From Cladocopium goreaui (Eukaryota > Sar > Dinophyceae > Suessiales > Symbiodiniaceae), in assembly GCA_947184155.2 (NCBI GenBank), contig CAMXCT020000489.1:180513-244512 (forward strand): a DNA stretch of 64,000 nt, in the 5' to 3' direction. How positions within the stretch are numbered: the first letter of the stretch is position 1; each line of letters opens with the position of its first letter. Shown here in pieces: positions 42,001 to 64,000 of this stretch. A program made the translations under genes and the position numbers. The notes beneath the pieces are model-generated. The model was not told the origin of the DNA. It did not search any database and saw only the letters and a program-made list of their open reading frames with translations.

Positions 42001-42590
42001 CTTTGCAGCAGCTTGGCAACAGGTCTGCTGGGCTGCTGGAAACTGAACTGAGCTGCCGAACTACGGAGAAACCTTTCATGAAGAGAGGTCGACCTAGCTT
42101 TACCCACCTTGATGCATGAGACTTCAATCTGTGAACACTGCACGTGGCGGCTCTGTCCTAGTTTTTTGGGTGGCCTTTGTCAATGCGTTTTCCTTCAAAA
42201 ATGAGCTGTCTGGACCCTGATGGGAGAAAGGGAGAATAGTTTCTTGACTGTGAATGCACAATTCCTGCAAGCTGGAATGGGATTGCAAAGCAGACTGTGA
42301 TCGCCACATCCAAATTAGAATCCAACATCATCAACTAAAATCCGGGATTCATCAACAAATCCGAAATCTGATAAGATCTTACAAGAATTCAACATAATTC
42401 AACTTGCTTTTTGATTTCGAAATTTTCGAAGCTTGTTTAAGTTTGTTTATATCGTGAAACCCCAATCTTCGGTCTGAGGAGCAGGACGTCCAGGAACTGG
42501 TGAGAGGAGGTTCCAGGCCATGCAGCAGCATCGCGAAGGGACCTTGCCTTCGAGTGAACTGCAGTGACTTGTACAGAATCTACTGATGAT

Positions 42591-42870
42591 ATTCATAATA
42601 TTTCATAATATTTCATAATATTTCATAATATTTCATAATATTTCATAATATTTCATAATATTTCATAATACTATATATATAAAATATACATATAGTATAT
42701 ATATACATATAATATACAAGTGTCAACACTGCTCTTATAGACATGCTATGAATATGATAGCTTTAGTATACCTGTCATATTTTAGCTCATAATGTATCAG
42801 CAATTATCAGCATACACATATAAATCATATATATATAATATAATATATATATAATAATATAAATATATAT
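42591..42870. repeat. (TTTCATAATA)8 array plus AT microsatellites
   Basis: 42591-42670 is eight consecutive decamers, seven of them identical, period exactly 10 bp. It grades into TATA-rich DNA with further AT blocks at 42825-42870. The longest decamer array in the window. Confidence 0.95.
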
Positions 42871-44412
42871 AATGTACCTCCAATAAACGCTTTGACACCT
42901 CGTCTTCAGCTGTTTGGCTTGTGGCTGCCACAGGCATCGGATCTCAGCCAGAAAAAATCCAATGATGCAACAACTTCCACAGGAAGGCCCTTGGGTACAT
43001 CTTAATGATCTTAGATGATCTTAGGATATGTAGTGGATATGTTAGGTAGATTTAGGTAGCAGATTCTGCATAAATCTCTGCGGCAAACATGTTTTCTCAG
43101 GAAGACATCTCCGGTGTACCAAACCGAACTTGATCCAACTTCATGGTATTTCACGGTGCTATTTTATCATTTTGCCTCTCTGAGTTTGCAGCATTGATCT
43201 GAAAAGTGTCCTTTGGCGTTTTGCCCCAAGGCCCAAGGCCAAGAAATGTTGCCGTAGTTACTTGCCGTCAGCCAGAGCTACAGAGCTACAGCCAAGACCC
43301 AAGAGCCCATCAAACTTCGATTCCCTACTGTTCGGTCTTGGAAAATGATGAAAAAATGTGCACAATCGGCCGTAAAGCGCCGTAAACAGATCTTTCGATA
43401 TCTTTCCGACAAAGTCCTTGATGCTGAAGCAGACGGTTTCAGTGCTCAGTTCCTGAAAGGATCATGCTCTGGTATCACAGTGTATCACAGTGTACCACTG
43501 TTCTCAAGGAAGACTACTGCCATGAGGACAGTGTCGAGGACTTTCAGGGGGCTACGGCACTGCTATGGTCGAAAACACTCGGCCATGCCTTGCGGTAGAA
43601 GTGACGTTCCTGCAGTACATGTCCACTCACTTTTGCCGGAAAAAGGGTGATGCTTCTCCGCAAAGTTGTTGCATTGCCTCTCTTGTTGAACCGGAAAGTA
43701 TTTGCGCTATTCTTCTATATTCAGTTCATTTTCGAGTAAGGGGCCATGTTACATGACCCATGGCATCTAAGAATGAAGCAGGTCAACAACAAAGTGGCGA
43801 TCAATGGCACAGCGCAGTCAACGCAGTGAACCCAATGAACGCGGAGAACGCAGTTGCCTTCTCTTTGAAGAGCTCCCCCCACAAGGCACACCTCGGTGTC
43901 ACAGTGCCACGGCATGCCACGGCATCCCTATTCCACAGGCTAGAGCTGGAGATGGAGGACGCTGGAGGCTAGAGGCGAGCGACACTTTGAAGAACCTCAC
44001 CGTATCCTCTTGGCGCTGCTTCAGGGGAATCCAAGTGTGAGATCTGGGAAGACATGAGAGAACAATAGAGAACATCTATCATCATCTATCCCTTTTTTTG
44101 CAAAACAAACAGTGTTTCTGGCCCTTCCCAAGCATTGCCCACTCCTGTTGCTGTTGCCGCATTGTGTTCAGCAGCTGGGAAACCCCACCGATCGGACGGC
44201 TCGTCCATAGCTGTAAACACCTCGCAAGAACACATTGATTTTTTGTTTGACATGTGGGTGGTCGTGACCATTCTTTTTTCTTCAGGACGCTGTATTTTTA
44301 TGTATTTTTCATGTTTTTTCACCGAGCCCGCCGAGCCCCACCAGAAATCATTACAGTAATCTATTATATATGATTACTTTTTTATTTTATGATATTACAT
44401 AAATATATATAT

Positions 44413-44644
44413 CAATTCAGTTCAACGACGTGCATATGATCAATGCACTGCACACAGCTGCTGCAATGTTTTTCCATCCTTGCAGGACGTGGGTAAGTCA
44501 GGATGGATGTATGATGGGAGATCGTTCCCACCGAATACAGAATCAAAAATCAGGCAGATCAACCTGTGCATCGCAAACGGCTGAGTGTTGATCAACTCAG
44601 ACATCCAAAAATGATCCATCCTTGAAATAAATGAAAACAGACCC
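44413..44644 (-). repeat. terminal direct repeat, outer copy (B2-like)
   Basis: 232 bp, identical by eye over its full length to 45057-45288. It ends the element on the 3' side, next to an AT-rich flank. Each copy contains five GATC sites and the near-palindrome around TTGATCAA. A retroelement relying on a recombinase would use such repeats to form its circular intermediate. Confidence 0.95.
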
Positions 44645-45056
44645 TGTAAACAGGCAAATCAGCCTGTTAGGTCACCTGAAATAAAAAGCAATGATCACTC
44701 AAAAGATCAGTACTACCGATACTGAATAGGATCGCCTGAGTCTGAAAGATCCAGGAGCATCAGAAAAATATATGAGCTCCACACAGCAACCGATCAAGTT
44801 GCACAAATCAAGGGGGTTTTTGGGAGGGATGGGACAACAAAGATCAGGGAAAAAGGGGATCAGATCTTGACCCAAAATGGCAAAGATCATAAAATAAATA
44901 AACCCGATCGGGTAAGACTGATCCATGTCGTCCCTCCCTCGATCGAGGAATCTCCAAAATACTGAACATCACAAAACAAGATGGAAACGCAACTGGTGCC
45001 AAGAACTCCAAATTGACCCACTTATTCCTAGCCTACCAAACCGTTAATAAGTGAAC
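44645..45056 (-). repeat. spacer between terminal repeats (A2-like), GATC-rich
   Basis: 412 bp separating the two 232-bp repeats; in the split-repeat model this is A2 and should match the element's lost 5' end (A1). It holds twelve GATC tetramers, the palindromes CCCGATCGGG (44903-44912) and CCTCGATCGAGG (44937-44948), and at its edge a 7-bp inverted repeat AACAGGC/GCCTGTT (44649-44668). No coding potential; the 75-codon minus frame here is not convincing. Confidence 0.8.
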
Positions 45057-45288
45057 CAATTCAGTTCAACGACGTGCATATGATCAATGCACTGCACACA
45101 GCTGCTGCAATGTTTTTCCATCCTTGCAGGACGTGGGTAAGTCAGGATGGATGTATGATGGGAGATCGTTCCCACCGAATACAGAATCAAAAATCAGGCA
45201 GATCAACCTGTGCATCGCAAACGGCTGAGTGTTGATCAACTCAGACATCCAAAAATGATCCATCCTTGAAATAAATGAAAACAGACCC
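45057..45288 (-). repeat. terminal direct repeat, inner copy (B1-like)
   Basis: Second 232-bp copy, beginning six bases after the Pol stop codon. Identity with the outer copy implies a recent insertion or homogenisation. Confidence 0.95.
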
Positions 45289-45294
45289 ACGCCG

Positions 45295-48261
45295 CTACCA
45301 GTTAGGGAACACTGGCTCAATCGACTTCCAGCCTAAATTTTCACCCACCTCCGTCTGAGCTCTGGACGGTGGATCAGCAGGATTGGAGTCAGTTGGAACC
45401 CTATCAACATAAAGAAAAACTTCGAGCTCAAGAGCTAATTTCCAAAATATCCCTACCAGTTCGCAAAGGTCTTCTTTTGCAGAGTAGCCCTTGACCAAGG
45501 AGCCCTGAACTGGTTCAGAGTCAACGAACATCAAAGTCCAGGAGCCACGGATCCAAGGCTTAAACGTTTCAAGAGCTACTACTGTGGCAAAGAACTCTAC
45601 CATTGCGATCTGAGACTTCCTAGGGAGCCACCTAGAAATCATTTTGGAACTAACTTCGCAGCTAAACTGTACTGGCTGCATCCCGCGCTTGAAGAGCACC
45701 CCGCCTATCCATGGTTTCAAAAGAGCACTAGTGCCGTCAGGAAAACTGCCATCAGTAAAAATGACAAAGTCAGCAGGGCGAGCGCCGAGCAAAGAGATAG
45801 GTCTTGGCGGCCCGTCGCTGATAAGCGTCCTCCAATGGTGTAGTGCCAGAACCAGAGCTTTGTTCAAGTCGGACCTGTGAAAGGAGGAATACTGTCTTTC
45901 TGAAAGCACCCTGAGGAAAGCGCGACCAATCTTTCCCCACAGCTGAGAAGCGCCGAACATCAGCTTCCCTCTCAGTTTGCCAGCTTGACCTGGCGGCAGC
46001 AAGCCAACTTCCAAAATAGTGTCGATCTCAGAAGTCAGCTCCTCCTTTCTGGATGGCTTGATCCTCAAACAGAAAGCTGCTAGGTCATATGTGACCCCTA
46101 AAATAGTGGGGTCGCTACAGAGCTGCAACTTCTTGCGATCAAATTGAGCTCCTAACCACCAGTGAACTTTCTGTGCGACCGTATGAGCGGAGCCGCATGT
46201 GGTCACAGTTTCGAACCCGTACTTGTCATCGTAAAAGTTGAAAGCCGCGACCCAAAAGAGCCTTCTCAAAATGTCAGTGATTGCCGCAGATCTACGGTTG
46301 TAGTTAGAAACAGCCGCCACTAGACCGAACGAGTGGCCAATCATTACAAAGAAAGAAATGTTTCCAGTGGTTGGTTCCTTCAGCGAGATCATGCTCCACC
46401 GGCGGTGATCGGGCCGGATGGGGATTTGGCGATATGCCTTCCGCTCATCCAAGACCCAACCTTGGAGATTTGTGTCCTCAGATACATTGGATCTCAACCA
46501 CCTCAATGCTGCAACATTGACGTCCGTGGACGGGAGCTCAAGCTTCTCCATGATCCTGGATGCCATATTGATCCCATTCGTAGTTGCACTGTCAACTCCG
46601 CGGACCTTGTTTTTCTGCACCACCTCGAACCTTTGGGTAGGGATCCAATCAGTGACCCCTAAGATCTCATCAACTTCTTGTCTGGAGAAAAATGGCCCGA
46701 GCGTGACCTTCTCTTCGACATCTTCCATAGTGGCTTCCCAGACCTTGGCCGTGTGTTCAGTCACCGCCGATCTGTTCACGTTCTTGATCACTTTGGAAGA
46801 GAACTCCCAGGCCCTTTCACAGAGCTCGGATTCACTCAGAGCGTCTTCCAAGTCAATGAGCAGAGGCCACCGTTGCGAGCGCTGGATGTCACCTACAATT
46901 GGAAAACCAAAAAGCAAATCATCCACCAGACGTTGATCCACGCAGTGGGCAGCGGCGAGCATATGCCTCCAGAGAGCCACATGTGTGCAGGTGCCGAGCT
47001 GAAGCGGCTGCCCATCAGGAACTCCGCGCAAGAGGCGCCGCAGGTGCGGATCCCGCACAAAACTGAGCTCGCGATCAGTCTCCGGGAGCAAATAATGCGC
47101 CTGAGCTGACCAGAAAGCAAGAGCTCCTTCGCGGTGTCCCAGAACTTTGTGGGGATGAAAAACTACCATGGCAAGAGCCTCTTGCAGATCCGGTTCAAGA
47201 GCCGGATCCTTGGTAAATGGATGCACCAGATCAAGGGCGGCGCGAACAGCTGTCCCTGGCTCCATTTCTGTCTGGAGCAAGGGTGGCATCGCTGATCTCT
47301 TCAGTTGATACCCTGCAGCGACCGCCTTCTGAGCGGTCAATTGTTGTTTGTGAGCTTTCCAAGGAACAGCTTGTCCCACAGGCCTCTTGCGATCGCCGCT
47401 AGCTTGCGACCACCGAAATGTCGCGAAAAGCGGGTCAGAACTCTTGGCTACAATGGTGTCAGCCCAGAGTTCGCACAGAGCTGCAGGATAAACTTGAGCA
47501 AGTTTGGTGCGAAACACTTTTGCCCCCTGGATCTCCACCATGCCCGTCAGCGGTTCATGATTGTGTGGCCTTGTGTCGCGATCGCAGCAAAGGGCGACTG
47601 GACCCAGATCTGCCGACGACAAAATTGCCGTAGGCTTTTTATGTTCTGATCCAAAACGGCACATATCCAGTTCGAAACGGCGAACGCCGCTCAGCTGAGC
47701 TATCTCCACAATGGGCGGCATTGACCAAAGGAAAGAGCCCGCTGGATTCTCGAGGGACCAGCCGACACCATGAGAGTGGCACAGCTGGATGATGTCCGCC
47801 GTAAACTGCATGAACTTGTTGCCCATCAAAACCTTCTGACGATCGCTGTCTGACAAGTGTGGAAGGCCCCACAAGTGCTGCTGATCACGCAGTGGTGGAG
47901 GTCCCCCGTCCTTCTTCCGAGCAAGGCTGAAAGACGAACAGGGGGTGCCAAAATGAATAAAAACAATAAAGCCATGGACAATGAGCTTCTTCAAATGATC
48001 CTGGACCTGTGGATCCAGCACGTCCACAGCTTCTAGCACAAAACTGTTGAGCAAAATCTCAATGGGCGGGAGGATCTTGGTGCCGCGAGCACTGATTGCT
48101 TGCGATAGCCCCGCTTCCCCCGCGAAAATTTCCAGAAAAAGACCACTGCCAGTCGGAATCTCCAGGGATCCCCAAAACGGTGCTGGCTTAACTGTCAGAT
48201 CAAAAGAATGAACTTCATTTGTGACGCCAGCTGCCGCGGGATCCCGCTTGTGTGAGCCGGC
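45295..48261 (-). CDS. Pol: C5 DNA methyltransferase, reverse transcriptase, RNase H
   Basis: An open frame of 988 codons from the codon after the Gag TGA to TAG at 45295, six bases before the inner terminal repeat. Residues 42-57 hold C5 methyltransferase motif I (FLEIFAGEAGLSQAIS), 105-112 motif IV with the catalytic Cys (GTPCSSFS), 170-175 the motif VI position as ENPAGS rather than ENV, and about 201-213 CRFGSEHKKPTAI. The domain is compact, with no clear motif X. Reverse transcriptase follows: LDERKAYRQIPI near 605 and the YxDD box as FYDD near 676. RNase H has FTDGSF near 837, MVEFFA near 889, FVDSE near 914 and DSNPADPPSR near 953. No ATG exists before the methyltransferase, so synthesis by readthrough of the TGA or from a Gag-Pol polyprotein is inferred. 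No internal stop: the copy looks intact. Confidence 0.92.
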   Translation of the reverse strand, partial: AGSHKRDPAAAGVTNEVHSFDLTVKPAPFWGSLEIPTGSGLFLEIFAGEAGLSQAISARGTKILPPIEILLNSFVLEAVDVLDPQVQDHLKKLIVHGFIVFIHFGTPCSSFSLARKKDGGPPPLRDQQHLWGLPHLSDSDRQKVLMGNKFMQFTADIIQLCHSHGVGWSLENPAGSFLWSMPPIVEIAQLSGVRRFELDMCRFGSEHKKPTAILSSADLGPVALCCDRDTRPHNHEPLTGMVEIQGAKVFRTKLAQVYPAALCELWADTIVAKSSDPLFATFRWSQASGDRKRPVGQAVPWKAHKQQLTAQKAVAAGYQLKRSAMPPLLQTEMEPGTAVRAALDLVHPFTKDPALEPDLQEALAMVVFHPHKVLGHREGALAFWSAQAHYLLPETDRELSFVRDPHLRRLLRGVPDGQPLQLGTCTHVALWRHMLAAAHCVDQRLVDDLLFGFPIVGDIQRSQRWPLLIDLEDALSESELCERAWEFSSKVIKNVNRSAVTEHTAKVWEATMEDVEEKVTLGPFFSRQEVDEILGVTDWIPTQRFEVVQKNKVRGVDSATTNGINMASRIMEKLELPSTDVNVAALRWLRSNVSEDTNLQGWVLDERKAYRQIPIRPDHRRWSMISLKEPTTGNISFFVMIGHSFGLVAAVSNYNRRSAAITDILRRLFWVAAFNFYDDKYGFETVTTCGSAHTVAQKVHWWLGAQFDRKKLQLCSDPTILGVTYDLAAFCLRIKPSRKEELTSEIDTILEVGLLPPGQAGKLRGKLMFGASQLWGKIGRAFLRVLSERQYSSFHRSDLNKALVLALHHWRTLISDGPPRPISLLGARPADFVIFTDGSFPDGTSALLKPWIGGVLFKRGMQPVQFSCEVSSKMISRWLPRKSQIAMVEFFATVVALETFKPWIRGSWTLMFVDSEPVQGSLVKGYSAKEDLCELVGIFWKLALELEVFLYVDRVPTDSNPADPPSRAQTEVGENLGWKSIEPVFPNW

Positions 48262-48264
48262 TCA
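48262..48264 (-). other. in-frame TGA between Gag and Pol
   Basis: Gag and Pol lie in one frame separated only by this TGA, whose context reads CAC TGA GCC. The open frame on both sides totals more than 1400 codons. It may be a programmed readthrough codon, as in gammaretroviruses, or a point mutation in this copy. Confidence 0.85.
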
Positions 48265-49551
48265 GTGGTTGCCCACCATGGGGTGGGAGGCGCCACATAC
48301 CATGCACAAATGCTTGAACCTGCACTTGTCGGCGAGCGCGCACCCCATGGAGGAATTGAAATAATGGCATCTCTTCGGCCCTGCGACCGACTTGGCCGCT
48401 TGGGCGATCGCCTTCCACTCAGTGTCCGGAATGCGTTTGTCTTTGTCGATCTTTGCATCCTTTGAGCTGGCTTTTGGTTTCTTGTCGAACTGCTCCTTCT
48501 TGACGAGCCTGGCTTCTTTGGCCTCTCTGAGAAGCTCTTTGTTTCGAAGCCGCTGCTTCTTCCTCTTGTTGGGAGACGGCTTGTCAAGTTGGTCGATCTC
48601 GACCTTGTCTTGGGGATCCTCAAGATCTTCCTTCTTCTTCTGATCGAACTTGGAGAGGACCGCCTTGGTGCGAGCGTCATTCCACAAATATTTGTGGTTG
48701 TTGAGCACCTCTTTGAGAGCATCTTCAAAAGTGGGATAGAGCTGCCGTTGCTCGGCTTGCAAGCGATGGATCTTCTTCCTGATCAGGGCGTCCGCGGCCA
48801 TGAGATTGGGCAGCCCTGGACATTCTGACCTAAACTGCTCGAGCTCCTGCAGATATCGCAATGGACCTGCTGCACGAGAGTACGTACAAATGTTCAGGTA
48901 TTCCATAGCCATGAACAGGGCGTGGATGCGGTTGAGCAAGGTCTGAACGTCCGTCACCTGATCAGGTTCATCTGCCTTCGAGATCGTGAGCAGATCCTCT
49001 GCGTTCTTGCTGAGACCCGCTTTCTGAACGATGCTGTCGGCACGCGTCCTGATCTCGGCAACCGTGTAGTACGGCATCATTCCATGAACAAGGAAGTCGC
49101 GGCTGACCTTCTCGACAAACTTTTTGTGTGGCTCCTTGGCGTCCAGAAGGATCACATCTGGATGAGCTGCCACGAACCTTGTGCGGAACTCCGCATGGTC
49201 CTCTTGAGCCATCTCCGGAACTTTGTTCGGATCTTCTTCCATGCGGGCACGTCTTGTCGCAAATTGACCTTGTAGAGCGTGACACGCGTGCCAAACTGCC
49301 GCGAGCTGCATGAGAGAAAGCTCCCGAGCTGCTTCGTCGGTGCCGAGCTCGGCTGACGGGATCATGGTCTTGAGTGTGTTCTTGACCACCGTGGCTGTAT
49401 CGCCGAGCATGGCGAACACTTCAACTGACAGGAGACCCTTGTCAGCGCTCGAGCGGCACAAGGCTTCGCGCAGCCCCATACGCCCAAAGATCTGCCTGAG
49501 GGCGATCTTCGGCGTGTGATCTGCATCGGCATATGTGGTGCGATCCACCAT
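48262..49551 (-). CDS. Gag-like protein with CCCH and second zinc finger
   Basis: ATG at 49551 (MVDRTTYADADH) is preferred over the GTG eleven codons upstream; the product is 429 residues. The first 300 residues are helical and unrecognised, as usual for Gag. A basic stretch follows (KRKKQRLRNK, VKKEQFDKKPK). At the end come a CCCH finger (C395, C404, C410, H414: spacing C-x8-C-x5-C-x3-H) and a second cluster (C416, C419, H423, H429) whose last histidine is the final residue before the TGA. CCCH fingers bind RNA in many proteins, so packaging of element RNA is a reasonable inference. Gag-like proteins with such fingers accompany dinoflagellate retroelements. Confidence 0.82.
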   Translation of the reverse strand: MVDRTTYADADHTPKIALRQIFGRMGLREALCRSSADKGLLSVEVFAMLGDTATVVKNTLKTMIPSAELGTDEAARELSLMQLAAVWHACHALQGQFATRRARMEEDPNKVPEMAQEDHAEFRTRFVAAHPDVILLDAKEPHKKFVEKVSRDFLVHGMMPYYTVAEIRTRADSIVQKAGLSKNAEDLLTISKADEPDQVTDVQTLLNRIHALFMAMEYLNICTYSRAAGPLRYLQELEQFRSECPGLPNLMAADALIRKKIHRLQAEQRQLYPTFEDALKEVLNNHKYLWNDARTKAVLSKFDQKKKEDLEDPQDKVEIDQLDKPSPNKRKKQRLRNKELLREAKEARLVKKEQFDKKPKASSKDAKIDKDKRIPDTEWKAIAQAAKSVAGPKRCHYFNSSMGCALADKCRFKHLCMVCGASHPMVGNH

Positions 49552-49584
49552 TCCGAAAAGAAATCTTGGAAAAATTTTGAGCAC

Positions 49585-49775
49585 AAAAACGAGCTGCTAA
49601 AAGAAACACAATGAAATAAGAACAGGTCATGACCAATGCGATGCTGAGTGAACACGTGCACTCACGACCACACTAGGACCCGGGGTGATGGAGCGGTGGA
49701 TCAGCCCTCCCCCTGGCGAGCAGCCGTTTTCCTGTTAATTTGCATGTATGATTGATAGAAAATGAAAAGGATCTG
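49585..49775. other. gap between recombinase and Gag
   Basis: About 190 bp (225 bp to the Gag ATG) with no open frame. It is GC-richer in the middle (49675-49730). It could hold a promoter or leader for Gag; no specific signal is recognised and it shows no similarity by eye to the terminal repeats. Confidence 0.5.
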
Positions 49776-50531
49776 TCACATACCGGCTCTTGTTTTGCAG
49801 AGCTGGCAGATCATGCCAGGAGCCTGGCTGCCAACTGATACTGCATCTTGGAATCTGAGCCTGCCACAGATCGAGGCCTCCTCGTTCAACTTCCGATCAA
49901 AAATATGGCACTTAAAATCACAAGTGACTAGAGCGCGCTCAGGAATGGAAGCCTTCACGATGAACTCCTGAACTAAGGGCTCAGAGACCTCCGCGTCTTC
50001 GTCTTCGATGACGAACTTCTCAGGATCTGGCACCCAACTGTCACGGAGCTTGGCGGCCATATCTTTCACCATTGCGACCGACAGTTCTTTTCTCTGTCGA
50101 GCGTACTTCAAGACGAGCTGCTTTGGGTCTTTCCAGTTCGCCTGTAGCCCGACGATCTTGTCGTCTACATTGGCCTTGACCGCTTGTGCGAGCATCGTGA
50201 CCCGCATAGAGTGCCAGGTGATCTCCTGGATAGCTTTCTCAATCTCGTCGACCTCATTGGTGTCGATGTAGTTGGAGCGCACTGATTGCCCCAAAGCATT
50301 GAGCATGAAATGCTTGAGCCATGCCAAACTGCGGCTGTAGGTGATTGCCTTGGTGAACCGCTTCTCGTTCTCGAGCTCCCAAATGAAATAGTCTCTGTCT
50401 GAAATGAAAGGTTGAAAGATCTTCCAACCCTCGTCCAGCCAGTCACGACCAGCCACAGAGCATTTGGGCACGGCGAACCTTAAGCCATGGGCATGGCATT
50501 TGGGGGTTTCATTTGCATTTGGGGGCTTCAT
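49776..50531 (-). CDS. tyrosine recombinase, N-terminally truncated
   Basis: 251 codons, the C-terminal half of a tyrosine recombinase. The HxxR box is at residues 107-110 (TWHSMRVTMLAQAV), a Trp at 133 (GLQANWKD) sits where His/Trp is expected, and the nucleophile is Tyr143 (LVLKYARQRK), 36 residues after the His. After the catalytic domain comes a Cys/His tail (CDFKCHIFD, ICGRLRF, MICQLC) like those in dinoflagellate recombinase-type proteins. The N-terminal half with the first catalytic Arg is absent. Homology seems to start near residue 17; residues before it come from the adjoining minisatellite, which supplies the ATG, and an in-frame TAG lies three codons upstream. Recombinases of this type integrate the circular cDNA. 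As it stands this copy should be inactive. Confidence 0.78.
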   Translation of the reverse strand: MKPPNANETPKCHAHGLRFAVPKCSVAGRDWLDEGWKIFQPFISDRDYFIWELENEKRFTKAITYSRSLAWLKHFMLNALGQSVRSNYIDTNEVDEIEKAIQEITWHSMRVTMLAQAVKANVDDKIVGLQANWKDPKQLVLKYARQRKELSVAMVKDMAAKLRDSWVPDPEKFVIEDEDAEVSEPLVQEFIVKASIPERALVTCDFKCHIFDRKLNEEASICGRLRFQDAVSVGSQAPGMICQLCKTRAGM

Positions 50532-50880
50532 AGTTGGCTACCCTCTGTTGAATGCTATGGGTTTCTTCTTGCCACCTTCTGTGGCACAGACTGCTCCTAT
50601 TTGCTGCAATGCAAAGGGGCTTCATAGTTGGGTTACCCTCTGTTGAATACTATGGGTTTCGTCTTGCCACCTTCTGTGGCACAGACTGCTCCTATTTGCT
50701 GCAATGCAAAGGGGCTTCATAGTTGGCTACCTCTGTTGAATACTATGGATTTCTTCTTGCCACCTGCTGTGGTACTGACTGCTCCCACCTGCTGCAATGC
50801 AAAGGGGTTTCATAGTTGGCTACCCCCTGTTGAATTCTGTGGATTTCATCATGCTATCAGCTGCAGTAGTGCTCTGATGT
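50523..50880. repeat. 93-95 bp minisatellite, four copies
   Basis: Units start at 50523, 50617, 50712 and 50805 with GGGCTTCATAG (GGGTTTCATAG in the last). Each contains TTCTTGCCACC and TTTGCTGCAATGCAAAG or variants; the fourth copy is degenerate after about 45 bp. Periods of 94, 95 and 93 bp do not keep a frame, so the plus-strand open frames across it are not genes. It abuts the truncated end of the recombinase. Confidence 0.93.
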
Positions 50881-50889
50881 CAGAACCTT

Positions 50890-52180
50890 TCTTCTTCAAA
50901 TAAAGCAAATCCAAATCGATGTTTCAAATTTATCAGCACTGTCTTTCAAATACCAATTTTTTTTTCAGTGTTCAAAAACATTTTGCGCCTGCTCAAATGT
51001 TTTTAAACGAGCAGGAAAAATATTGCAAAAACATTCAATTTTCACAAACTGGCAGAATCTGCTCTGCATTCAACAACTTTGCATTACAACAACTTTGCGT
51101 TAAAACGTCATCATAGTCGAGATATTTTCGTTTGCTGAAACATTCGGTATCTCCACATAGAAGCTGTAGGATTTTTTTGAATGAGATGATTCCATTCCAG
51201 CTGGTTGATGGTTGATAGTTGTATAAGAAAACAATGCATTTTGATGTGACAGCGAATGATTTCATTGTGAACCCACATGATGCTAATCTGACACCAGAAT
51301 TATTGATGTTTGCTTCGCAATTCGATTTCATGCACAGAACAGCATGAAGTTGATAGTGTGTTTGTTGTCAGATGATCATGTTGTCAGATCGTGCGTCGCA
51401 AAACAAGGGGATGAATGGTGAAACGTGTCCTTGGCTGACAGCCAAGTGAACAAACACTTGATGTACCAAGTGATGCATTTAGTTTATGGACCAATTATAT
51501 GATGACGTCTAACTAACACCTGGCCACACGGGCCCCACCACTCGGGAATCGCCAGGATGCAGTTCCTTAGATGACCAGATTTGGGGTGGAACCTGAATGG
51601 GACAGTGTAGACACTGCGTTTTTTTGTTTTCATTGGTAGAACTTTAGGGCATCGACTGAAAAGGAGGTGTTTGATCATTTTCACATGACGTAGGCAAAGC
51701 ATGAATACAGTAGCTTTGAGAAAGGTCTCAGGGAACTGCAAAAAACAAACTTTCAACTGCCAGTTGGAATGTGTCAGATGGGAATGTGTCAGATGGAATG
51801 TGTCAGAGGGGAATGTGCCAGTGGTTGAGGATATCAAGAAAAGGCAATCTATGAGCCTGAGTCGAAGACACAGCGACCTCAAGCTCAGGCTTCACAGGGG
51901 GCAACGGGGCAACGGGGCAACCTCAGGCAAGCAAACATGTCTGGCATGCCTCGAAAAAACACAATGACTGCACGAAAGAAGACTTTAACTAAGGTCAGTG
52001 CATCATCACAGGGTTTATTATGCCTGAGGCCAGCCAATCCAATAGCCTTTCCATGTGGAATAATCTTCAACTAATATCCTATAGTAGTCTAATCACAACA
52101 ACATGCAGTGGCACTTTTTTCCTTGAATCAAAATTCAGCCCAGGCTGCTCAAAAATGTCATCTTGCATCTATCAACTGAC
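50890..52180. other. non-coding DNA with one candidate exon
   Basis: AT-rich to about 51480. A minus-strand unit near 51527-51583 (acceptor CATTCAG before GTTCCA, donor GTGTTA) reads through ILAIPEWWGPCGQ and may be an exon. A tandem repeat GGAATGTGTCAGAT lies at about 51770-51829. Otherwise nothing seen. Confidence 0.5.
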
Positions 52181-52190
52181 ATTCAGACAA

Positions 52191-52685
52191 CTAATCGTTC
52201 ATAGTGTCCAATTGTCCAAGAACGAAAAGGTATTCCTGGGCATCCGCAAGGAACAACTGCACTTGCTGAAACTCATGTGAATTGCATCCTTGATCCCTCA
52301 GGCTCTGTGCGAAACGGATTCCAGCCAGCATGTCGTCACAAAGAGCTGCTCGGTAAGGGCAAAGGCGAGGTTCATGAAGACCCCCAAGCGCAGCCATTCG
52401 AGCAGCTCCAGTAGTTGGATATTCGTCCAAGACAAATGTGATTTGGTCCTCAGCTGGTATGGTTGTTGCCAGGCTAACCTGATCCTGGAGGCATTTGCAG
52501 GCTGTGAGCAAACTCCAGAGTTCAGATAGTGACACCAGCCGTTCTCCACAATAAGTCAAGATGGAAGCGACCACGTCTCTCAAATTATCCAAATCATCTA
52601 AGAAGTACCTTCGCTGCACATTGCCCATGTTCAGGGTCTTTGACAGAATGAATGTCACCATCATGACCTGCCATTCTTTAGCCAT
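52191..52685 (-). CDS. tandem paralogue 1, unknown function (164 aa)
   Basis: ATG at 52685 begins MAKEWQVMMVTFILSK. The frame extends upstream to 52820, but the extension is broken by an indel in the sister gene at 53483-54004, which supports the start at MAKEW. The protein is all-helical in appearance, with conserved blocks CGERLV, LLTAC, CLQDQV, LCPYR and EFQQ shared with the sister. No signal peptide, membrane segment or known domain is visible. 33 nt upstream lies a sequence resembling a relict spliced leader. The two proteins match at a little under 60% of positions by eye. Confidence 0.68.
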   Translation of the reverse strand: MAKEWQVMMVTFILSKTLNMGNVQRRYFLDDLDNLRDVVASILTYCGERLVSLSELWSLLTACKCLQDQVSLATTIPAEDQITFVLDEYPTTGAARMAALGGLHEPRLCPYRAALCDDMLAGIRFAQSLRDQGCNSHEFQQVQLFLADAQEYLFVLGQLDTMND

Positions 52686-52718
52686 GTTGAAGTTGAACAC
52701 CAGCTCAGGAGCAAGAAA

Positions 52719-52742
52719 CTTGAGCCAAATTATTGGCATCCG
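52719..52742 (-). promoter_or_regulatory. relict spliced-leader-like sequence, copy 1
   Basis: On the minus strand, 33 nt before the ATG of the gene at 52685, the sequence ends TTTGGCTCAAG, matching the last 11 nt of the dinoflagellate spliced leader. A GCCA further 5' also matches, with a 3-nt gap and mismatches near the 5' end. Retroposed dinoflagellate genes keep such relics. The partial match makes this a candidate only. Confidence 0.45.
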
Positions 52743-53107
52743 AATCACCACCGCCTGCATGTGGCCAAACAGAGCCCACATGTGAAAAGAGAGCAACCAA
52801 ACAACTGGCACCAGTGCCATCTGACAGCTGCCAGCCTACAGAAGAACAACTTGCCCTTCACTGGTTGAAGTGCAGATTCCACCCAGCATCCTGAATCAAC
52901 ACAAAGCTGGAAACGTTTGGACTTGTGGTCAGTTGAGAATGCGAACGAGATATTCGATTTGTGGAAATGTCATTTGACAAAGAAAATATCAGCAAAAACT
53001 GTCAGTTCGGAATGCAAGTTGTTCAAGCCGTCAGTTGCAAGTTGTTCAAGATGCCAGTTGACATGCTTAGTGCGCAAATCAGCCGTCGAAACAAACAATG
53101 CATTGAT
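52743..53107. repeat. duplicated flank, copy 1
   Basis: The DNA upstream of gene 1 (minus orientation) matches 54073-54415. The block 52935-53107 is identical by eye to 54241-54415 for about 173 bp; the rest differs only by a few substitutions and indels, including a 10-bp insertion in copy 2 and about 45 bp present only in copy 1. Confidence 0.9.
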
Positions 53108-53482
53108 CCAAGTTGAAGACGCAATGACCTTTAGTCTGGAAAGAGTGTACAATGTGTTGCCTGCAGTTCACAGCTTTTCGCACGAAACAGATCAACAGTG
53201 AAATGAAAACTTTCAGAGGGAACAACCTTAAGTGAACAAAACTGTTGACGCATCTCTTGCATGATGTTAGGTTGCGACATGTCACATGCTGAGATCTTAA
53301 ATTTTGCTTGATGGCATTTGCAAACAATCATGATAACTTAAAAGAGGGCATGGAAAAGTCAGTCTTGCAAATGACGTTCCACAACTAGACAACAAAATGC
53401 AGCACCATTTCTTTTTCCCATGATAAAAGTAAGCGACATCTGGCACTAAACCAACTGACATTCAGGCAACTAATCTAATCAT

Positions 53483-54004
53483 TCATGGCGTCTCACTGTC
53501 TGAGCATCCATCACCTGATTTCTTTTCCAGCTGCAACAAAATGCGAAGGAAAGCGTGGGTGTCCTGGAGGAAAAGTAGTGCTTGCTGAAACTCATCTGAT
53601 TGGACTTCTAGCTTGCACAGGCTTTTTGCACACTGGATGGCGGCCATCATGTCAGCATGAAGAACTGTTCGGTAAGGGCAAAGACGAAGTTCATCAAACG
53701 TCCCAAGCGAAGCAGCTGGGGCAGCTCCAGTACTTGGATTTCCGTCCAAGACCACTTTGATTTGGCCCTCAGATGGTATGATTTTTGCCAGGTTAACCTG
53801 ATCCTGGAGGCATCTGCAGGCTGTGAGCAAGGTCCAGAGGTCACTTAGACACACCAGGCGTTCTCCACAAACAGTCAAAACAGAACGAATCACTTCTCTC
53901 AAATTCTCCAACTCTTCTGAGAAGTCCTCTCGCTGCACATCGTTCATCTTCAGCATTTTTGACATAATGAAAGTCACCATCATGACCTGCCATTCTTTAG
54001 CCAT
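53483..54004 (-). CDS. tandem paralogue 2, unknown function (173 aa)
   Basis: ATG at 54004 begins MAKEWQVMMVTFIMSK and the frame ends at TGA 53483. It shares with gene 1 the blocks CGERLV, LLTAC, CLQDQV, STGAA/TTGAA, LCPYR and EFQQ, and differs through the middle and at the C-terminus, which is longer (KKSGDGCSDSETP). The first 16 codons and the upstream flank are nearly identical to gene 1 while the rest has diverged. A spliced-leader-like relic lies 44 nt upstream. No known domain. The pair arose by a tandem duplication with a 1.31-1.33 kb period. Confidence 0.68.
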   Translation of the reverse strand: MAKEWQVMMVTFIMSKMLKMNDVQREDFSEELENLREVIRSVLTVCGERLVCLSDLWTLLTACRCLQDQVNLAKIIPSEGQIKVVLDGNPSTGAAPAASLGTFDELRLCPYRTVLHADMMAAIQCAKSLCKLEVQSDEFQQALLFLQDTHAFLRILLQLEKKSGDGCSDSETP

Positions 54005-54048
54005 GTTTAAAGTTGAGCGTCAAAAAACACCAGCTCAGGGGCAAGAAA

Positions 54049-54072
54049 CTTGAGCCAAATTATTGGCATCCG
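54049..54072 (-). promoter_or_regulatory. relict spliced-leader-like sequence, copy 2
   Basis: Identical 24-nt sequence to 52719-52742, placed 44 nt before the ATG of gene 2. It was copied with the tandem duplication, so it is not independent evidence. Confidence 0.42.
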
Positions 54073-54415
54073 AATCACCACCGCCTGCATGTGGCCAAAC
54101 AGAGCCCACATGTGAAAAGAGAGCAACCAAACATAACCAAACAACTGGCACCAGTGTCATCTGACAGCTGCCCGCTTGCAGATTCCACCCAGCATCCTGA
54201 ATCAACACAAAGCTGGAAACGTTTGCACTTGTTGTCAGTTGAGAATGCGAACGAGATATTCGATTTGTGGAAATGTCATTTGACAAAGAAAATATCAGCA
54301 AAAACTGTCAGTTCGGAATGCAAGTTGTTCAAGCCGTCAGTTGCAAGTTGTTCAAGATGCCAGTTGACATGCTTAGTGCGCAAATCAGCCGTCGAAACAA
54401 ACAATGCATTGATCC
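54073..54415. repeat. duplicated flank, copy 2
   Basis: Partner of 52743-53107. The identical 173-bp block contains AGTTGTTCAAG twice and the motif GTCAGTTG common in introns of this array. Confidence 0.9.
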
Positions 54416-54651: not shown

Positions 54652-56637
54652 TCAGCCTGGGAGACCAGGACACACCATCAAGCCAAATCTGAACACAGCA
54701 AATCTTGGTTGAAAAACGTGCCTTTTAAGAAACAAGTTTTTAACCAAGAAAAACATTTTGAAGCTTAAAAGCCAAGGCACGGATTGCGACAAGTCATGCT
54801 GCAGGACGACAATATGTCTCAGCCTGTGATGCTGGCCTTGCAGATATCGTCTTGGCGCAGCATTTTCTGGCGTGGAATTGTACCGATGGTCCAAAAAACT
54901 GTAATGCTGCAACCTTGGGTCACGGCGCTTTGTTCCTTTGGCCCATCCAATCAAAAAATCCAAAGCATCTTTGTGTATGCCCCCTTTCAGATGGCATTGC
55001 TCTGCTTTCTTCACAATATCCTCTCGCTCTTTCACTGGCATGTGCTTCCTCAACTGGTTGCCAGATGGCTGCAACGATAATGATCTTCTCACATCATCAA
55101 TTTCAGCTGCAGGCACCAGCAAACAAACCTGATACGGTTGGGCATCTGACATGTACTTGTGCACGCCCATGACCAAGTCATTTGGATGAGGAGGTGGGGC
55201 CCCTGGCCAAGCAGTGATCTCTGCGTCCCCAATGTCTTCCATTTGATGTCGCTGAACGATCCGGAACCCATGTGGGGCGAGTGGGCCAGTAACACATGAG
55301 AATTTCAAAGGAATTTCCTCAGCCCAACTTCGCCAGTCTGCTGACTGGTCATGCTTCCAACAACTTGTCTTGAAGGTTCCGTTTTCAAACGAACAGCCAT
55401 TGAGGAACTTCTCATACAAATTGACCAGCTCTCTGTCTGTATTGAAAGCCTCTGCAGAGGTTTTCACCACCGCTTGCCCCCCGAGGGCATCGAGACACGT
55501 GTGCGTGTGCCCCTTGATGGGGAAGCAGATGTAGATTGATTCAAAAACCTGGAGGAGCCTCAGTTTGATGAAAAATCTCAAGACAACTGAATTTTTGTTG
55601 TCTCTGCTTGTGTTGTCGAGAGCCAAGCAAAGATGCCGAGCCAGTGCCTTGTGCTTGTCGTAAATTCCAGTGAGCAGCCGGCTGAGGCATTCAAGGTGGG
55701 AACATGAGTCTTTGGGAAGGTCGGGATCCGCTATTGCAAATTCCACTGAATGGAAATGGCACCAGCACATCTGGACATGCATGGCTGGCCTGATCAAGTC
55801 ACAGAATGCCTTGGTGAAGTTTTGGCATCGAGGAACTTTGTGCTTGGCTTGATCAAGCCCATCACTGCGAACAAACATCACACTGTGCTGCAGCAAATTC
55901 AAATCTGTCCCTGATAGCATCGCGGCCCTTGTTTGTCCGGCCTGTGCGTGGAAGTTGCTGTCAAGTTGTCTATCGCGCCAATTGCGCAATAGGTGCCCTG
56001 CGTAGTCCTCCATTGTGGAATTTCGCTCAGCTACTCCCATGTGTCGCTGGAGCTGTTTTTTGTACCACATACATTCATCGCAAACTCCATGCTGCCCTGT
56101 GCTTTTGCGGAAGGCAATGTGTTTCCTCGAAGCACGAAGTGCACGCAAGAATGTTGTCCAAGATGGTTTTTCTGTGTAATTGTTTTGCTCACACCAGGCT
56201 CTGCACATCTGATACAGCACAATAGGTTTTACAACCCCTAGGTATCTTCTCGGAGCATCACCCAATTGCGGCCCTTTCATGGCGTTCTGGAAGGGATTGG
56301 ATGTGACGATGGCCTTTGTAGCCATTGCTGCAAGCTTTCTTGAATCTGCCTCATTCCAATCATCCTTTGACATCTGGCACTCTTCATCTTCAGAATCTGA
56401 ATCTGGCAACTCACATCTGACATCACATTTTCCATCAGCTGACTCTGACCTGTGTTTGGGAGCGAAAACCAATGTTGGGCGGCCCAGCCCTTCAAAATCA
56501 AATCTGTCAGGCAACCACTCACCCTCGTTGTGGTACCGCAGCTGCAAGAACCGATGACAGAGATCCAGCTGGGGCCTTGCAACTGCATTCTGTACTCGGA
56601 AGGCTCTCTTGCGACGATCTGGAAGTCCATGTTGAAC
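54652..56637 (-). CDS. DDE-type transposase-like protein, main exon
   Basis: An open frame of 661 codons from an AG|G acceptor (CGCCAG before GTTCAA) to TGA 54652. Early residues read HGLPDRRKRAFRVQNAVARP; a region with a Cys pair (GVCDEC, residues 186-189) follows, then a DDE-like core: SDGLDQAKH (D259), ALDNTSRDNKN (D341, N342) and GHTHTCLDALGG (D383). This pattern, with the DN(x)xRxNKN and GHTHxxxD boxes, is that of the eukaryotic DUF7869-type family, which I take to be transposon-derived. Dinoflagellate genomes carry many copies. The last 45 or so codons are hydrophobic and poorly coding, so the true end may come earlier. Terminal inverted repeats were not found. It could also be a domesticated gene. 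Confidence 0.75.
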   Translation of the reverse strand, partial: VQHGLPDRRKRAFRVQNAVARPQLDLCHRFLQLRYHNEGEWLPDRFDFEGLGRPTLVFAPKHRSESADGKCDVRCELPDSDSEDEECQMSKDDWNEADSRKLAAMATKAIVTSNPFQNAMKGPQLGDAPRRYLGVVKPIVLYQMCRAWCEQNNYTEKPSWTTFLRALRASRKHIAFRKSTGQHGVCDECMWYKKQLQRHMGVAERNSTMEDYAGHLLRNWRDRQLDSNFHAQAGQTRAAMLSGTDLNLLQHSVMFVRSDGLDQAKHKVPRCQNFTKAFCDLIRPAMHVQMCWCHFHSVEFAIADPDLPKDSCSHLECLSRLLTGIYDKHKALARHLCLALDNTSRDNKNSVVLRFFIKLRLLQVFESIYICFPIKGHTHTCLDALGGQAVVKTSAEAFNTDRELVNLYEKFLNGCSFENGTFKTSCWKHDQSADWRSWAEEIPLKFSCVTGPLAPHGFRIVQRHQMEDIGDAEITAWPGAPPPHPNDLVMGVHKYMSDAQPYQVCLLVPAAEIDDVRRSLSLQPSGNQLRKHMPVKEREDIVKKAEQCHLKGGIHKDALDFLIGWAKGTKRRDPRLQHYSFLDHRYNSTPENAAPRRYLQGQHHRLRHIVVLQHDLSQSVPWLLSFKMFFLVKNLFLKRHVFQPRFAVFRFGLMVCPGLPG

Positions 56638-56744
56638 CTGGCGTGGGAGGTCATGTCATGCCAGGCCAAGACTTGCATTGAAAAATGAACGATTGAAAAA
56701 CCAACTGAAACAAATAAACGGGCACATAAAAACTAACCAAAGCA

Positions 56745-63482: not shown

Positions 63483-64000
63483 AATCCTATGGCAACTCCC
63501 AGTTGCCATAGGATTTGGCAGTGAAGGAATCCCAATATATTGAAATACAGAAAATCATATACCCTGGGAAATCCTATGGCAACTCTGAGTTGCCATAGGA
63601 TTGGGGCACATGCTGCCTACACCTCAGAATCCTACGGTTGGCAGCCAGGTGCCTTTTGAATTTCAAATCCCAGGTCTATGGCAACTCCCAGTTGCCATAG
63701 GATTGTCGGAAGTTGGCAGCAAACCCAAGTCCCAAATCTATGGCAACCCCAAATCCCAGGTCTACGGCAACCCCAAATCCCAGGTCTATGGCAACTCCCA
63801 GTTGCCATAGGATTGTCGGAAGTTGGCAGCAAACCCAAATCCCAAGTCTACGGCAACCCCAAATCCCAGGTCTACGGCAACTCCCAGTTGCCATAGGATT
63901 GTCGGAAGTTGGCAGCAAACCCAAGTCCCAAATCTATGGCAACCCCAAATCCCAGGTCTACGGCAACCCCAAATCCCAGGTCTACGGCAACCCCAAATCC
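63483..64000. repeat. palindromic minisatellite
   Basis: A tandem array of a word of about 22 bp (CCCAGGTCTACGGCAACC and variants) interrupted by hairpins with arms CTATGGCAACT and AGTTGCCATAG around a 3-nt loop. Two hairpins (63483-63515, 63570-63602) have perfect 15-bp arms; further copies are at 63676-63700, 63786-63810 and 63872-63896, the last with one arm mismatch. The word GATTGTCGGAAGTTGGCAGC follows three of them. It continues past the end of the window. All open frames here are repeat artefacts. Confidence 0.93.

Follow-up and report, generated by a model that had tools for sequence, protein, structure and literature searches.

A conserved in-frame UGA, probably read through at low level, between Gag and a methyltransferase-reverse transcriptase Pol in a DIRS-like retrotransposon

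How does a retroelement make its enzymes when a single stop codon stands between Gag and a Pol that continues in the same reading frame? The question arises from the minus strand of the window, the whole stretch of 64,000 nucleotides analysed here, where reading of the DNA and translation of its ORFs revealed a Gag-Pol element. Its Gag-like ORF of 429 aa (48262..49551, minus strand, delimited by the ORF itself and by its relatives) runs from an ATG at 49551 to an in-frame TGA (48262..48264), beyond which the Gag frame has 988 codons without a stop, up to the TAG that ends Pol (45295..45297). This confirms an earlier note on the same DNA, which had left the strand unstated. With its 988 codons, Pol exceeds every other stop-free run of the window when all six frames are considered, the runner-up having 667 codons, and no further copies of Gag, Pol or the recombinase described below were found in the 64,000 nt. 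Upstream of Gag, the minus-strand sequence TGTGTTTCTTTTAG at 49597-49610 ends 45 bases before the ATG, and could serve as an acceptor site for cis- or trans-splicing of an mRNA that starts with Gag.

The ORF is called Gag because of its position and its zinc-type motifs, two Cys/His patterns that occupy residues 395-429 (48265..48369, minus strand) and abut the stop. The first, C-x8-C-x5-C-x3-H, covers residues 395-414, and the second, C-x2-C-x3-H-x5-H, residues 416-429, so that its final His, H429, is the last residue ahead of the TGA, just where the earlier note had placed the boundary; the binding of zinc itself is suggested by the pattern. The eight motif residues do not change in 60 aligned Gags (60 of the 121 at hand), and single changes at these residues occur among Gags outside the alignment, such as P0148, P0166, P0179, P0181 and P0225. 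Comparison of the Gag fold with the PDB gave no match at E 0.001.

On the other side of the TGA, the frame enters a linker (Pol residues 1-42; 48136..48261, minus strand) that is open, in frame and devoid of Met, with pLDDT values below 50 for residues 1-26 of the predicted model. It is followed by a C5 cytosine methyltransferase region, with approximate limits at residues 43-273 (47443..48135, minus strand), defined by the motifs FAG, PC and ENP, which we take to act as C5 methyltransferase motifs, the Pro-Cys at Pol 107-108 presumably being the catalytic one. The sequence LEIFAGEAGL starts at codon 43 past the TGA, close to the 40 or so codons claimed before, and the absence of any preceding ATG also holds, as the first Met of Pol in the window copy is residue 146, downstream of P107/C108. 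Both P107/C108 and E171/N172/P173 are unchanged across 23 aligned Pol sequences. The Pfam family DNA_methylase scored above its cut-off in a single relative, P0006 (one of 23 and one of 50 Pols searched), and not in the window's own Pol, and no methyltransferase fold appeared among the 50 best rows of a structure comparison with the whole Pol model. Further downstream, a fold match places a reverse transcriptase with a YDD motif at about model residues 420-732 (46066..47004, minus strand), and an RNase H-like region, with approximate limits at residues 828-968 (45358..45780, minus strand), is suggested by a Pfam RT_RNaseH match under the cut-off (E 0.15) and by HIV-1 reverse transcriptase fold rows that reach Pol residue 968 with an rmsd of about 12. 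The Pol sequence matched no PDB chain. In sum, the methyltransferase, recognized by its motifs and by the Pfam match of P0006, and the reverse transcriptase, recognized by fold, lie in one Pol ORF.

A separate ORF upstream of Gag corresponds to the 3′ part of a tyrosine recombinase (49776..50531, minus strand), as deduced by comparison with relatives; it carries HSMR and VLKYAR boxes, and the H-x-x-R and Tyr boxes are kept in eight sequences, with no Pfam match for the ORF. The N-terminal part is absent, and the window copy is regarded as 5′-truncated because similarity to full-length recombinase relatives starts only at 50486. A tandem array of four 93-95 bp units (50522-50863) abuts the truncated 5′ end, and may mark how this copy lost its 5′ part. 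The order recombinase-Gag-Pol can be seen in a relative, P0241 (1,192 aa), in which a tyrosine recombinase longer than the one here is continuous with Gag in a single ORF. Past the end of Pol, two identical repeats of 232 bp, B1 (45057..45288) and B2 (44413..44644), flank a stretch (44645..45056) that would take the place of A2 in an A-coding-B-A-B arrangement; no A1 repeat was found within 42001-54000. The tyrosine recombinase ORF and the B repeats point to a DIRS-like element and not to a retrovirus-like LTR element. The element resembles a 5′-truncated DIRS-like retrotransposon of the SymbioDIRS-Dnmt3 kind, probably from a dinoflagellate.

The rest of the window shows other repeats and frames. 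A direct duplication with a spacing of about 1.3 kb (52191-54415) holds two related ORFs whose DNA is 76-80% identical, flanked by 99% identical blocks (52871-53109/54177-54415 and 52696-52803/54026-54133), as if the duplication had been partly homogenised. An open frame of 667 codons on the minus strand (54652-56655) matches DUF7869 (E 1.8e-17), and a direct repeat array of five overlapping 135-nt copies lies at the window's end (63664-63994).

The simplest account of the TGA would be a nonsense mutation in this copy, whose ancestor had a single Gag-Pol frame, and the 5′ truncation makes decay conceivable in principle. The earlier note had left the choice between such a mutation and readthrough open, and had proposed to look for the stop in other copies. 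Scans of viral contig and genome contig collections found no DNA relatives of the element, and the comparison was made with protein records, in which the identity of the stop and the frame are not directly visible for the 107 Gag relatives, among the 120 matches listed of 236, that end at exactly the same codon. The remaining listed Gags either end earlier (6), cross the site in the +1 frame (5: P0142, P0161, P0168, P0170 and the gene model P0227) or read a sense codon (2), a ratio of stop to sense that is biased because each of the three protein searches was restricted to a range of lengths and only listed matches were counted. For 15 of the 120 no motif was parsed, and these were assigned by eye; six of them end before the site, five are the +1-frame records just named, and four (P0148, P0166, P0179 and P0181) end at it with one motif residue changed. 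On the Pol side, 110 of the 120 relatives among the matches listed have at most 1,041 aa, that is, they come without Gag. Material suitable for alignment amounted to 60 Gags ending at the site and 50 long Pols. When 118 Gags and 113 Pols were compared by their longest source contig, ten pairs had exactly equal lengths, which suggests that both partners lie on one contig, although one of the ten may coincide by chance, since eight unequal pairs are within 0.2% of each other. The stop terminates nine of these ten Gags, and the remaining one passes it in +1. To the extent that protein records can show it, the stop is conserved among relatives, and neither a sense majority nor different frames for Gag and Pol, outcomes that the earlier note had named as refuting readthrough, were found.

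A quick maximum likelihood tree of 116 Gags (LG+G4), which includes the fragments P0067 and P0107 and four rows with long branches, adds the history of the site. A total of eight records with a sense codon required eight changes, all of them forced by branches with SH-aLRT of at least 95, and shuffled labels gave a mean of 7.8 changes, which indicates that the sense records are scattered as if by chance. Their nearest stop-bearing Gags are 95% identical in two cases (P0169 for P0107 and P0175 for P0016) and 82-87% identical in five others, whereas for P0067 the nearest (75.6%) is nearly tied with the sense record P0247 (75.3%). Being a scattered minority amid stop-bearing kin, the sense codons make the stop the older state by parsimony. 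With 107 of the 120 listed relatives stopping at this very codon and sense restricted to eight single tips, the nonsense mutation is rejected and deserves practically no credence, while the family is best described, on the sequences compared, as maintaining an ancestral in-frame TGA.

That the ancestral stop was TGA is deduced from two sets of records. Seven (the five listed Gags, P0114 and P0241) pass through the site in the +1 frame and read it as GAN, with E in six and D in one, which fits TGA, since the expected reading would be AAN for TAA and AGN for TAG; these frames were assigned by eye, and a sense codon of the form xGA is equally compatible with GAN. The eight sense records have W in five (P0016, P0067, P0183, P0246 and P0247), R in two (P0107 and P0236) and C in one (P0248), each a single base away from TGA, R and C being more than one step from TAA or TAG. 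A further search with 35 matches had yielded P0016, P0246, P0247 and P0248, which carry the motif and continue into Pol, as well as P0241 with its +1 crossing, and P0067 and P0107 were taken from the Pol search; the sense reading of P0236 is unsure because its frame breaks soon past the site. None of the eight holds a whole Gag together with a whole Pol: the part of the reverse transcriptase around LDERKAYRQ is absent from P0016, most of Gag is missing in P0067 and P0107, the end of Pol is not reached in P0107 (possibly truncated where its contig, of 4.3 kb, ends), P0246, P0247 and P0248, and the Pol frame is lost past the site in P0183 and P0236. Loss of the stop is thus confined to defective records, as would be expected if the stop were needed. 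Six of the eight continue from Gag into Pol without a change of frame, and three of these have Gags 47-48% identical to that of the window, which indicates that the shared frame is old too; in the window DNA this one frame has one stop in between.

The same residues bear on two readings in which the UGA would not act as a stop at all. If RNA editing turned UGA into sense, for instance into UGI, which is decoded like UGG (Trp), reverse transcription of the edited RNA would yield copies with W at the site; W is indeed the commonest sense residue (5 of 8), and nuclear transcript editing together with ADAR-like candidates has been reported in Symbiodinium microadriaticum (PMC5357065). However, TGG and CGA are plain transition neighbours of TGA as well, C needs a transversion, and the edits described in the consulted parts of PMC5357065 include at most one loss of a stop codon, which leaves editing only a slim chance. 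A host in which UGA is not a stop, either through a change of code or through selenocysteine, appears extremely improbable: one record does have C at the site (P0248), and UGA has been inferred to be partly read as Trp in the syndinean Amoebophrya (PMC6394959), but the sections of that paper seen give no such signal for dinoflagellate hosts, the Gag and Pol of the window contain one TGA against 1,417 sense codons, 31 of them for Trp, and reassignment would not be expected to leave just one UGA, placed at a constant protein boundary.

Other routes to Pol would respect the stop. Regulated splicing could remove the UGA from a fraction of the transcripts and so fuse Gag with Pol, and some eukaryote gene models (for example P0033, P0021 and P0257) indeed skip the stop. 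The skipped stretches nevertheless vary between models, as they would in automatic models forced across a stop, and over 90% of DNMT genes were described as intronless by de Mendoza et al. (PMC5890265), a figure that derives partly from intronless gene models. Splicing is consequently considered quite unlikely, and the models that connect recombinase, Gag and Pol were left out of account, as their skipped stretches differ, an example of how annotations can hide a conserved stop. Pol might instead be made as a separate protein, by internal or non-AUG initiation, from a shorter or trans-spliced mRNA, or by reinitiation after the Gag stop. Dinoflagellates trans-splice their mRNAs, and several relatives have a Met soon past the stop, P0002 starting with MGDQP, the sequence found right after the site in P0016. 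A weak promoter has also been described in the junction of the Tca2 element (PMC2194720, as far as consulted). On the other hand, the window copy offers no AUG ahead of Pol residue 146, and the recorded Pol starts vary from before the linker to past the first methyltransferase motif, as choices of gene callers. Moreover, a separate Pol needs no open linker in the Gag frame, and the window and six relatives have one, so that separate synthesis appears unlikely, if somewhat less so than splicing.

The in-frame stop that has been kept, the open linker and the lack of a Pol AUG in the window are best explained by low-level translational bypass, and we consider readthrough of the UGA the probable mechanism. 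Of the two readings of the earlier note, it is this one that the relatives favour. Most ribosomes would terminate at the UGA and release Gag, and a few would bypass it to produce a Gag-Pol fusion, keeping the ratio of enzymes low and letting the Gag part carry them into the particle; we infer the translational nature of the bypass, its rate, its signal and the particle alike.

A search for such a signal around the stop gave mixed results. A C directly after the stop is a known leaky context (PMC2194720 and PMC10085805, in the parts consulted), and was seen neither in the window nor in the seven +1-frame records; P0236 would have a C after the site, in a frame that breaks soon after. The comparison of the following bases that the earlier note had called for gave a partial regularity, with G next to the TGA in the window and a purine in six of the seven +1-frame records, and with bases further 3′ that differ between records. 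As for RNA structure, the 120 nt past the TGA fold with a minimum free energy of -46.0 (z of -2.9 with 60 shuffles and -2.4 with 1,000), which places them fourth by z and tenth by energy among 138 windows, whereas windows of 60 and 80 nt gave z values from +0.6 to -2.0 and, in a control by synonymous-codon resampling, 22% of 500 sequences folded as well as the 120 nt. The evidence for a stem-loop, from one DNA copy and unsupported by this control, is weak.

These results leave room for a variant, rather unlikely in our estimate, in which the UGA would be bypassed without any portable local signal, through a factor of the element or the host or through RNA editing of UGA to UGG; in murine leukaemia virus, the reverse transcriptase is reported to act on eRF1. 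If so, a whole dinoflagellate family of tyrosine-recombinase elements would ration a DNA methyltransferase-reverse transcriptase fusion by host-specific recoding. For readthrough itself, two fungal precedents have a UGA: pol of Tca2 is made from the gag-pol RNA, although 300 nt of the junction were insufficient in yeast (PMC2194720), and transposition of Tj1 and its kin reportedly requires the stop (PMC10085805), according to the sections of both sources consulted.

Should readthrough be right, stop-gated Gag-Pol expression, so far a feature of retroviruses and LTR retrotransposons, would come to include retrotransposons with a tyrosine recombinase, as well as dinoflagellates. The methyltransferase would then be made only as a minor Gag fusion, with the rate of bypass setting its dose and place, and the many natural copies, intact and decayed, make the rule directly testable. 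In the open-access literature searched, where a single paper uses the name SymbioDIRS, the matches listed include no stop-separated Gag-Pol in a DIRS-type element. Tca2 of Candida albicans is a Ty1/copia element. Its gag and pol share a frame and are divided by a UGA, as in the element described here, but it is an LTR element in which a purine spacer is present and a pseudoknot is predicted (PMC2194720, in part). A conserved in-frame TGA also separates Gag from Pol in Tj1, Tosmo1-3 and Tcry1 of fission yeasts, Ty3/gypsy elements with a strict GAA-TGA-CT context (PMC10085805, in part), whereas here a purine mostly comes next and the sequence beyond is variable; a UGA between gag and pol is thus already known in LTR elements from these two reports. 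Moloney murine leukaemia virus likewise encodes Gag and Pol in the same frame, on either side of a stop that is read through at about 5%, but this stop is UAG, followed by a purine-rich spacer and a pseudoknot, and the virus has no tyrosine recombinase (PMC2194720, in part).

The relatives by gene content are found elsewhere. DIRS1-like elements share with this one a Gag-like protein, a tyrosine recombinase and reverse transcriptase-RNase H-methyltransferase parts, but are described with inverted terminal repeats and with three ORFs, among which those of pol and recombinase often overlap; the term 'stop codon' is absent from the text of the report consulted (PMC3266345). Their methyltransferase is of the Dam (adenine) type, as opposed to the C5 type here (PMC5890265, in part). 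The closest resemblance is with SymbioDIRS-Dnmt3 (de Mendoza et al. 2018, PMC5890265, in the parts consulted), a likeness in described organisation: SymbioDIRS-Dnmt3 is a dinoflagellate retroelement, as the present one probably is, both have a C5 methyltransferase and a reverse transcriptase in one Pol ORF and a tyrosine recombinase encoded apart from it, and the B-A-B end repeats of SymbioDIRS-Dnmt3 may have their counterpart in B1 and B2 here. The main text of that report contains neither 'gag' nor 'readthrough', unlike the Gag-UGA-Pol arrangement presented here, and its authors proposed that the methyltransferase methylates the new cDNA.
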